Under the pieces are notes generated by a model. That model made no database searches. It worked only from the letters and a program-made list of their open reading frames with translations, and was not told the origin of the DNA. From Coriobacteriia bacterium (GTDB lineage Bacteria > Actinomycetota > Coriobacteriia > WRKU01 > WQUG01), in assembly GCA_009779855.1 (NCBI GenBank), contig WRBC01000001.1, positions 168,444-232,443 of the forward strand: 64,000 nucleotides of DNA, read 5' to 3'. A program made the translations under genes and the position numbers. Shown piece after piece: positions 41,275-45,386 of the stretch; the stretch's first letter is position 1, and every line of letters begins with the position of its first letter.

Positions 41275-42753
41275 ATGTTTAATTTCACTGCCGAATGCAT
41301 AGCGAAGGTTTGTTCTGGCAAAATAATTGCAGGATCGCCTAAGAGAGCAGCGCAATCTTGCTCTATTGACTCTAGGCAGGCAGAACAAGATGGCCTTTTT
41401 GCGGCTTTTGTAGGTAAGCAGTCAGATGGACATGATTACATTGCTTCTGCTGTAGATAGGGGGGCAAGCGTAATCCTTGCCAGTAAGGTCGGTTCAGATT
41501 TTGGATCCTTTTCAGACCGAGCAACAAGTATTCTTGTTGATGATGTTCTAATCGCTCTGCAAGATCTCGCAAAGTATCAACGCTCACTTATTAGTTGTCC
41601 TGTGATTGGAATTACAGGCTCCTCAGGAAAAACATCTACTAAGGAACTACTTAAAGGTGCTTTGGAAAGTAGCCTGAAAGTAATTGCCACAGAAGGTAAC
41701 TACAATAATGAACTAGGCGTTCCTCTGACTCTGCTTCGCGTTAGACAAGGTACAGAAGCGGTTATTCTAGAGATGGGAATGAGGGGTCTTGGGCAGATTA
41801 CCGAATTAACAGATATTGCTCGTCCAACCATGAGTATTATTACTACTATCGGCGACGCTCATATAGAGATGTTGGGTAGCAGGGAAAATATTGCTCGTGC
41901 AAAAGGTGAAATATTTGAAGCTCTTTCAGAAGATCAGCTTGCCTTTATGCCAGCAAGAGTAGAATTTGGTGACTACTTGCGCAGTGTATGCAAGGCGTCG
42001 TTAGTGACAGTTGCGATTGAGGATTCTTATGATGCTGCGCACATGAGTCAGTCTGCAATCAGTGCCTACATTAAAGGCTTTGATGCGCAGGGCAATGCTA
42101 CAGTGTTGGTTGTCTTCTCTATGGGGGATGAATTGGAAATGAAGCTTGCTATTCCTGGTGAGCACAGTGTTCAAAACGCCCTGTTAGCCCTTGCTGTTGC
42201 AAAAATTTTAGGCATAGAGAGTGCGGTTGCGATTAAGGGTGTTGAGGGTGTTCAACCAACTGATATGCGCATGCAGCGTGCGAAAGTGAATACGCTGATT
42301 GATATTCAAGATAGCGATATCCTTGTAGACTGCTATAACGCTAACCCAGAATCAACTGCAGCGTCACTAAAGACTTTGGCTGTCTCAGATTTAGGCAACC
42401 CAAGTACAGGAAAGCGCATTGCTGTGCTAGGCGACATGTTAGAAATGGGAGACCATAGCGCAAAAGTTCATAAGGATATTCTACTACTGTCTGGCTTGCT
42501 CAACATTGATGTGGTCTATACTTTTGGGCAGGCCTATACTGACGCAACACAGGACATACTTCGAGAGTTGAGCACAGGGCTCAATACAGAAAATATTCCA
42601 GAGCTGCGTTCTTTTACTGATATGAAATTATTAATTCGAAGCCTTTCCAGTGAACTTACATCAGGTTCGCTCATACTTATTAAAGGATCGCGCAGCATGC
42701 AAATGGAGCGCATTAGAGAGGCGTTAAGTGTAGAAGGAGACAATCCATGTTAG
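41275..42753 (+). CDS. murF: UDP-MurNAc-tripeptide:D-Ala-D-Ala ligase
   Basis: Adds D-Ala-D-Ala to the UDP-MurNAc tripeptide. ATP loop GITGSSGKTSTKELL near residue 110, then NYNNELGVPLTLL and VILEMGMRGLGQI, both typical of MurF. The central domain has GEHSVQNALLALAVAK, and the C-terminal domain DCYNANPESTAASLKTL. 492 residues. It overlaps mraY by seven bases. Confidence 0.96.
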   Translation: MFNFTAECIAKVCSGKIIAGSPKRAAQSCSIDSRQAEQDGLFAAFVGKQSDGHDYIASAVDRGASVILASKVGSDFGSFSDRATSILVDDVLIALQDLAKYQRSLISCPVIGITGSSGKTSTKELLKGALESSLKVIATEGNYNNELGVPLTLLRVRQGTEAVILEMGMRGLGQITELTDIARPTMSIITTIGDAHIEMLGSRENIARAKGEIFEALSEDQLAFMPARVEFGDYLRSVCKASLVTVAIEDSYDAAHMSQSAISAYIKGFDAQGNATVLVVFSMGDELEMKLAIPGEHSVQNALLALAVAKILGIESAVAIKGVEGVQPTDMRMQRAKVNTLIDIQDSDILVDCYNANPESTAASLKTLAVSDLGNPSTGKRIAVLGDMLEMGDHSAKVHKDILLLSGLLNIDVVYTFGQAYTDATQDILRELSTGLNTENIPELRSFTDMKLLIRSLSSELTSGSLILIKGSRSMQMERIREALSVEGDNPC

Positions 42754-43868
42754 CTGGCCTTGCTCAGTACCCTGCATTTCAAGTGTTTTTGACTCTTAGT
42801 TTATCAGTGGTACTGGTTGCTATGATTACTCCTTTGCTCATCCGCTTTTTACAAAAGCGCGAGATTGGTCAGCAAATTCGCGCAGAGGGAATTCAGGAAC
42901 ATTTAGTAAAGCATGGAACTCCCACAATGGGGGGCATTGTTATTTTGCTTGTCGCTGTTGCACTCTTTGCTGCAATGGTTGCTTTTGCACATCCCATTAT
43001 TGCCGAGGCTAGTGCACATCGTATTGACATGTTTAATACGGGAGTGCGTGCAGGTGTCACAGTGCTCTTATGTATGCTAGGTTGTGGAATCCTAGGCTTT
43101 ATTGACGACTACATAAAGGTTGCAAAAAAACGGAGCCTGGGACTTTCTGCTCGTGCAAAGATTGTCGGACAACTGCTCATAGCTGTAGGTACTACGCTTG
43201 CAGCTATTAACTGGGTAGGTGTATCAGCAAATATTTATGTCCCTCTTACAGACTTCTATATTCCTCTTGCGCAGGTGTCTACGACGTTTACACTGCCAGT
43301 GTTTCTCGGTTCGGTAGTGTTAACTATTCCTTGGGTTTATTTATTGTTCGCCCTGATTATGATTGTCGGTCTAACAAATGCGGTAAATCTAACAGATGGA
43401 CTTGATGGACTTGCAGCAGGAACTGTCACTATAGTTGCCTTAGTATTTGCAGCTATTGCTTATGCATCAGGCTCACTGCCTGTTGCCATTGCTGCGACTG
43501 CCATTGCTGGTGGCTGCATTGGCTTTCTCTGGTGGAATTGTTATCCTGCAAAAATCTTCATGGGAGACACAGGATCCCTTGCTCTGGGAGGTGCCATTGC
43601 GGGCCTAGCTCTGGTAACAAAAACAGAATTATTAGTTGTTGTTATCGGTGGGATTTTCGTCATTGAAGCCTTGTCAGTGGTTATTCAGGTTCTTGTCTTC
43701 AAGATGACAGGTAAGCGCGTCTTTAAAATGGCACCTATCCACCATCATTTCGAAATGCTGAAATGGTCAGAAACTACCATTATGGTTCGTTTTTGCATCA
43801 TTACGGGATGTCTAGCAGCATTTGGGTTTGCCCTCTTCTTCTATGAGCTTACGCGATTGGGCGGGTAG
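42747..43868 (+). CDS. mraY: Phospho-N-acetylmuramoyl-pentapeptide transferase MraY
   Basis: Integral membrane enzyme forming lipid I from UDP-MurNAc-pentapeptide and undecaprenyl phosphate. About ten helices. The motifs are KHGTPTMGGI near residue 52, GFIDDYIKVAKKRSLGLSAR near 115, NLTDGLDGLAAG near 215, FMGDTGSLALGG near 270, and MAPIHHHFEMLKW near 325. 373 residues. The TAG at 43866 is immediately followed, in the same frame, by the murD coding sequence. Confidence 0.97.
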   Translation: MLAGLAQYPAFQVFLTLSLSVVLVAMITPLLIRFLQKREIGQQIRAEGIQEHLVKHGTPTMGGIVILLVAVALFAAMVAFAHPIIAEASAHRIDMFNTGVRAGVTVLLCMLGCGILGFIDDYIKVAKKRSLGLSARAKIVGQLLIAVGTTLAAINWVGVSANIYVPLTDFYIPLAQVSTTFTLPVFLGSVVLTIPWVYLLFALIMIVGLTNAVNLTDGLDGLAAGTVTIVALVFAAIAYASGSLPVAIAATAIAGGCIGFLWWNCYPAKIFMGDTGSLALGGAIAGLALVTKTELLVVVIGGIFVIEALSVVIQVLVFKMTGKRVFKMAPIHHHFEMLKWSETTIMVRFCIITGCLAAFGFALFFYELTRLGG

Positions 43869-43877
43869 GCGAGAGCA

Positions 43878-45386
43878 ATTAATCACGCGCAAGAACATAC
43901 GAACAGACAGGCAGGCTTACAAACAGGGAACCTTTCCAAAAATGCTTTTGAAAAGGTTCTTATTGTAGGTGTTGGCAAAAGTGGTCGGTCGACTGCTCGT
44001 TTTTTACTTGAGCACAGTATTCAACTGGGAATTAGCTCACTTGCCCTAGTAGACTCTGTTTTTTCAGAAGATCTTAAAAATTTCTTTGCGCAGATGCAGC
44101 AGGATTGTCCCACGGGAGTGCAGCTATCTGCTGACTTCGGCGTAAATTCTGTGCCTACAGTAGGCGAGCACTATTATGATGTTTGCATTATTACTCCAGG
44201 ACTTGCCCCGCACACTATACTTGCGCAGTCAGCTTGCGAGCAGTCAGCAGAAGTCATTTCTGAGGTTGAGCTTGCCTACCGTCTATCTCCTCCAGGCTTG
44301 AACTGGGTCGCCATTACGGGAACTAACGGTAAGACAACTACTACTGAATTGGTGCGGGAAGTACTTTCTGCTCAAGAAAATGTTCAGGTTTTTAGCGTAG
44401 GCAATATTGGAACCCCGGCACTAGAGCTACTTGCTTCGGTGCGCCCTGGGGATTTTTTCATTGCAGAGGTCAGTTCGTTTCAAGCAGCACGACTCAGTAC
44501 GTTTAAACCACGTGTGGCCGCATTGCTTAATTTGAGCTCTGATCATCTGGATTGGCACAAGGATATTGCTCGCTACGGGGCAGACAAATGCAGGATTTTT
44601 GCAAACTCAGGCAATGGTGACTTGGTGCTTGTGCCCGAAGAAGACGAATTGCATGAACTGGCGCGTCCCGTAATTGCCGCCGCAGTTCTCGCTGCAGAGA
44701 AGCGTGGCGCATGCGTGAGAAAAATTAGTGCTGACGAGCATTGTTTGCCCTTGGAAAAGCATGAACTTCGCATTCGTGGGGACCATAATATGATGAACGC
44801 CTGCTTCGCAACTGCGATAGGTCACTATTTTGGGGTACCAGATACAGACATTTCTAAGGCACTGAAATCTTTTCAGCCACAGCCACACCGAATGCAGGAG
44901 ATTGGCATTTTTGAAGACGTAATTTATGTCAACGACTCAAAGTCAACCAATCCCGATGCAAGTATTTCTGCACTTAGTGCTTATGCGGGTCTTGAACTTA
45001 CCTTACTTTTGGGTGGACAAAGTAAAGACGTAGACTATCTTGATTTAGTAAGAGCTGCTTTAGTGCGTGCGCAAACAATACTTCTTTTTGGACAGGCAGC
45101 AGTCGGGCTAAAGTCACACTTTGATGCACTTTCTACAGGTAGCACAAGCGACCAGCAGATACTGACATTTGAATCTATGAAAGATGCCGTGCATTTTGCC
45201 TGTAAGAATGCAGCCCCTAAGCAGGTGGTATTGCTCTCCCCAGCAAATGCTTCTTTTGATGAGTTTGATGATTTTGAGCATCGGGGATGCTACTTTACTT
45301 CGCTCGTTAAATCCTTCCATGAGGCAGCGACAAAAGAAGGCACTTGCACTGATTCATATAGTCAAAATTTAGATAGTGTGAGATAA
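43878..45386 (+). CDS. murD: UDP-MurNAc-L-Ala:D-Glu ligase MurD, start codon non-canonical
   Basis: Adds D-glutamate to UDP-MurNAc-L-Ala. The track starts at 44094, but the frame upstream encodes the Rossmann-like N-terminal domain (KVLIVGVGKSGRSTARFLLEH) that MurD needs, so the true start lies before it. Between the mraY stop and this motif the frame contains no ATG, GTG or TTG; ATT at 43878, after GGCGAGAG, is the best candidate. The ATP loop ITGTNGKTTTTELV (near 140-155), NLSSDHLDWH and YVNDSKSTNPDA motifs are intact. The gene is surely real; the start is doubtful. Confidence 0.85.
   Translation: MNHAQEHTNRQAGLQTGNLSKNAFEKVLIVGVGKSGRSTARFLLEHSIQLGISSLALVDSVFSEDLKNFFAQMQQDCPTGVQLSADFGVNSVPTVGEHYYDVCIITPGLAPHTILAQSACEQSAEVISEVELAYRLSPPGLNWVAITGTNGKTTTTELVREVLSAQENVQVFSVGNIGTPALELLASVRPGDFFIAEVSSFQAARLSTFKPRVAALLNLSSDHLDWHKDIARYGADKCRIFANSGNGDLVLVPEEDELHELARPVIAAAVLAAEKRGACVRKISADEHCLPLEKHELRIRGDHNMMNACFATAIGHYFGVPDTDISKALKSFQPQPHRMQEIGIFEDVIYVNDSKSTNPDASISALSAYAGLELTLLLGGQSKDVDYLDLVRAALVRAQTILLFGQAAVGLKSHFDALSTGSTSDQQILTFESMKDAVHFACKNAAPKQVVLLSPANASFDEFDDFEHRGCYFTSLVKSFHEAATKEGTCTDSYSQNLDSVR

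Follow-up and report, generated by a model that had tools for sequence, protein, structure and literature searches.

A probable AUU start codon for murD, directly behind mraY, in a Coriobacteriia bacterium

The mraY-murD junction

The window analyzed here, a stretch of 64,000 nucleotides (G000:C1:168444-232443; positions below are those of the window unless a contig is given), comes from a MAG of a Coriobacteriia bacterium, G000, which comprises 1.54 Mb in 15 contigs and is 93% complete. On the plus strand, mraY occupies 42747..43868 (sequence; TIGR00445 profile match of 292 bits) and ends with a TAG at 43866-43868. The murD frame, which is the same as that of mraY, is open from this TAG to a stop at 45384-45386 and encodes the Rossmann motif KVLIVGVGKSG at 43953..43985 (plus strand), as an earlier note on this DNA had described. 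The same note had found no ATG, GTG, or TTG start for murD, and this was confirmed: none of these codons occurs in the murD frame between the mraY stop and 44094, where the first canonical codon, an ATG (44094..44096, plus strand), is located. When 1,278 coding open reading frames (ORFs) of G000 were ranked by the coding signal that precedes their first canonical start, murD came third, and first among recognisable genes.

The best candidate named in the note was an ATT at 43878..43880 (plus strand), preceded by GGCGAGAGCA and separated from the mraY TAG by 9 nt. Read from this ATT, murD extends from 43878 to 45386 on the plus strand (502 codons plus the stop) and matches positions 1-440 of the 441 positions of TIGR01087 with 337 bits, above the curated cut-off of 211.95. 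Read from the ATG at 44094, the match is restricted to positions 62-440; positions 1-61 are lost together with the Rossmann motif. According to the note, such a start would remove the UDP-binding domain. murD is an essential cell-wall gene, and the genome has it in single copy; two further matches were weak and lay on the frames of its ligase relatives murE and murC.

No in-frame AUH or CTG codon other than the ATT was found upstream of the Rossmann motif, and the other notable near-cognate codon in the leader is an ACG at 43899. AUH codons make up 6.2% of codons, and an AUH within ~29 codons is common by chance. The ATT is informative solely by its place, because it lies opposite the GTG of a congener (see below), 9 nt past the mraY stop, and behind a Shine-Dalgarno (SD) match.

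The start region and its counterpart in congeners

The SD-like sequence GGGTAGG (43863..43869, plus strand) overlaps the mraY stop, and its AGG core (43867-43869) lies 8 nt 5′ of the ATT. Its duplex with the anti-SD has an energy of -5.8 kcal/mol compared to a genome median of -5.9, that is, of ordinary strength, given an anti-SD (CCUCCUUU) that was assumed, as the MAG contains no 16S gene from which to read the 16S tail. This energy is matched or exceeded at 6.7% of internal codons. The codons immediately 5′ of the ATT have SD energies equal to its own, and therefore the SD locates the start region and not the ATT codon itself. The values for the ACG at 43899 and the ATG at 44094 were -0.5 and +2.0, respectively, which amounts to no SD; the ATG is unlikely to be the true start. 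The predicted RNA fold around the murD start was unremarkable (z of 0.37). An unusual initiator tRNA was considered as a cause of the AUU start and rejected, since the tRNA has the CAU anticodon and the usual three G:C pairs. With this ordinary initiator tRNA and an IF3 gene that is present and full length by profile match, nothing in G000 points to relaxed decoding.

Two congeners, G001 and G002, were compared at the same junction. The MurD of G002 is 67% identical to that of G000; its mraY ends with TAA, and its murD starts with GTG (L002:1492). The murD of G001 also starts with GTG, preceded by GAGGCAACGC. Neither congener has its mraY and murD in a shared frame, and protein-level similarity of both congeners to G000 extends upstream of 44094. 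In a tblastn alignment, the ATT of the window lies opposite the GTG of G002 (INHAQEH/VHDGQEH), with the N-terminal extension between the ATT and the MurD domain being poorly conserved. The ATT at the murD start was seen in one genome only, and conservation of the codon in close relatives, which the earlier note had proposed to check by alignment, was not found. A different start in relatives had been named there as evidence against the AUU. The codon does differ, but its place is that of the ATT, so the position is supported.

At the DNA level, G000 and G002 align between mraY and the conserved FEKV with a better score than shuffled sequence, only 7 to 23 of 500 shuffles reaching it, depending on the gap setting. 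In a pure DNA alignment, AGGC.AGA blocks match, and the GTGC of G002 lies opposite a 4-nt gap next to the ATT. The AUU would thus stand in for an ancestral GTG, which was either swapped for ATT by substitution or deleted in a small indel, with the ATT taking over. An out-of-frame ATG at 43942 combined with a lost base was also tried as an explanation and rejected: the codons of G000 and G002 pair without interruption at this place, and no ATG is present in G002.

Other genes without a canonical start

A second, ortholog-based census covered 653 genes with relatives in the sampled parts of G001 and G002. A stricter ortholog filter was adopted, as a looser version picked up mostly SD leaders and overlaps. 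Together, the two censuses left a handful of conserved genes in which the conserved protein begins 5′ of the first canonical codon. Three candidates of the coding-score census were set aside: C7:47191 and C15:571 resemble artefacts of composition, and C3:59836 resembles a piece of an IS3-type transposase.

One of these genes is gmk, encoding guanylate kinase (G000:C8:23499 [L244]; L184, L245, and L246), in which no canonical start precedes the P-loop. The codon at the start place is ATT in G000, G002, and G007 and ATC in G001, that is, an AUH codon in four MAGs from two genera; the frame opens only 1 to 12 codons before it, and the P-loop follows directly. Elsewhere in the order, in further genera and families, an in-frame GTG or TTG is present. 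The gmk case is stronger than that of murD, since it is seen in four separate MAGs. In infC (G000:C7:81401 [L094]; L139), no canonical codon precedes the conserved region in frame. The gene is predicted to start with ATA in G000 and probably also in G001, where an ATT two codons earlier is a second possible start. In G004 and G005, an ATA stands behind GGGAGGTGAAAACG, and an in-frame GTG lies three codons upstream. Finally, dgt (G000:C6:41465 [L192], minus strand; L193, L194, and L196) runs for 93 codons in G000 without a canonical start; an ATA there overlaps the stop of the upstream gene (TAATA). An ATA is found at the corresponding place in G001, G002, and G008. It is forced in G000 only, whereas G001 and G002 have an in-frame TTG or GTG farther upstream.

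Several further observations were made in these genomes. A wecA/tagO-like gene (G000:C2:97108) likely starts with ATC behind TTAAGGCAGCACT, with an ATG close by in G001. The start of a yigZ-like gene (G000:C5:110512 [L202]; L203) is likely noncanonical, being an ATA without an SD in G000 and an ATC behind AGGAG in G001. In nrdG2, a radical-SAM activase gene (G000:C3:5334-6173 [L133]), the radical-SAM cysteine motif lies 5′ of the first canonical start; the G000 start is perhaps CTG, and G002 has an ATG. A short frame at G000:C2:189441-189791, which by eye resembles part of an Mrr-type restriction protein, has no upstream canonical start and is probably a remnant. The mraY of G008 (L067:1236-1245) came up as two matches that overlap but differ in frame, probably due to a frameshift or an assembly error.

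How murD may be translated

We consider it likely, with a probability of roughly 0.83, that murD is translated from the AUU at 43878 and that initiation there is genuine, coupled to mraY, inefficient, and probably sensitive to IF3. Of the three options that the earlier note had offered, this one is best supported by position, SD, and the full-length MurD match. On finishing mraY at its TAG, 9 nt upstream, ribosomes would re-initiate at the AUU by means of the ordinary initiator tRNA; the SD-like GGGUAGG, which overlaps the stop, would assist them. Because AUU would pair imperfectly with the CAU anticodon, MurD synthesis would be reduced, tied to that of MraY, and IF3-sensitive; the IF3 gene of G000 would itself start with AUA. 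MurD would then be made mainly by ribosomes coming off mraY. The absence of a canonical start, the place of the ATT and the SD match behind which it lies, an intact MurD domain, the GTG of a congener at this place, and the other noncanonical starts in the family are read directly from the genomes; from them we infer actual initiation at the AUU, its low efficiency, its coupling to mraY, and control of murD by IF3.

The missing canonical start looks like real weak initiation rather than a sequencing mistake because noncanonical starts recur in other housekeeping genes of related species. A consensus error or a minority variant, by which the MAG would misreport a true ATG or GTG, is unlikely. 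The genome is a MAG, the ATT is one base from ATG, and the congeners carry GTG, but this GTG is two bases away from ATT, and a single-base slip would need to strike exactly the ATT codon. When G002 ORFs of at least 200 codons were compared with G000, none of the 338 compared orthologs was split by a frameshift, and no clear broken gene was seen in about 133,000 aligned residues. Nine matches contained an internal stop, and by eye these looked like leaders, antisense frames, or poorly aligned ends and not like broken genes. The same kind of start also occurs in other genes, and for one gene it recurs across four MAGs, which, like the 338 intact orthologs, speaks against the single-base error or mutation of ATG to ATT suggested in the earlier note.

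The other explanations concern where ribosomes begin. Read-through of the mraY TAG, also suggested in that note, would yield a MraY-MurD fusion, and only this one TAG separates the two genes in their shared frame in G000. However, a shared frame has a 1-in-3 chance, and the fusion is not conserved, the frames being different in G002 and G001, which makes read-through extremely unlikely. Equally improbable is a shortened MurD translated from the ATG at 44094: no canonical codon precedes this ATG in the frame, but it lacks an SD, it would cost the sole copy of an essential gene its first 61 profile positions and Rossmann motif, and the codons upstream of it are conserved as protein. Initiation within the same leader at another codon, for example, the near-cognate ACG at 43899, would fit the poor conservation of the extension between the ATT and the domain. 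It is highly unlikely as well, since the ACG has no SD and, up to the Rossmann motif, the leader offers no AUH or CTG besides the ATT.

Initiation of murD at the AUU would have parallels. One is infC, the gene of IF3, where AUU, AUA, or AUC starts serve IF3 autoregulation. As in murD, the AUH codon of infC stands behind an SD, but infC controls its own repressor, whereas murD encodes a cell-wall enzyme without known feedback on IF3. In Staphylococcus aureus, cvfC1 starts with AUU and ccpN and citZ start with AUA, and AUU and AUA starts reach about 10% of the level obtained with AUG and, in one case, as much as 30% (PMC13009471). These genes resemble murD in having an AUU or AUA start with SD pairing, and the starts of cvfC1 and ccpN are conserved (PMC13009471). 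However, the infC, cvfC1, and ccpN sites have strong extended SDs and are backed by ribosome profiling (PMC13009471), whereas the murD start has an average SD, lies close behind another gene, and is predicted from sequence. In Streptomyces, the GTC start of sigR was shown experimentally to be repressed by IF3 (PMC5472188). Like murD, sigR is an actinobacterial gene with a noncanonical start that was overlooked by annotation, but its codon is GTC and not ATT, it is a regulatory gene, and the IF3 effect there is experimental (PMC5472188). When IF3 is in excess, ribosomes re-initiate less past an upstream stop, and the effect is smaller if an SD is present (PMC2268962). In those systems the start lies a few nucleotides past the upstream stop (PMC2268962), as the ATT does at 9 nt, but the coupling of murD to mraY is deduced from spacing only.

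Starts of the AUH type are already known; as far as the literature searched goes, murD and gmk as their users and the small family-level set are new. A class of AUH starts would be recognised by the lack of a canonical start giving the complete protein, by an SD at a suitable distance, and by an AUH codon conserved in relatives. The first two are seen in murD; the third is seen in gmk and not in murD, where the congeners have GTG. We suggest only tentatively, with the odds rather against it, that this coriobacterial family uses AUU, AUA, and AUC as a standing regulatory class: expression of infC, gmk, dgt, and murD, perhaps along with several other housekeeping genes, would be kept low and dependent on IF3. 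For annotation, gene finding limited to ATG, GTG, and TTG shortens or loses essential genes such as murD and gmk; murD, for instance, would be called from 44094 with its Rossmann motif gone. If the regulatory class is real, it would link the translation machinery with the metabolism of the cell wall and of nucleotides, and a gene set that includes gmk, conserved across genomes, makes IF3-level tuning of metabolism testable beyond the few known cases.
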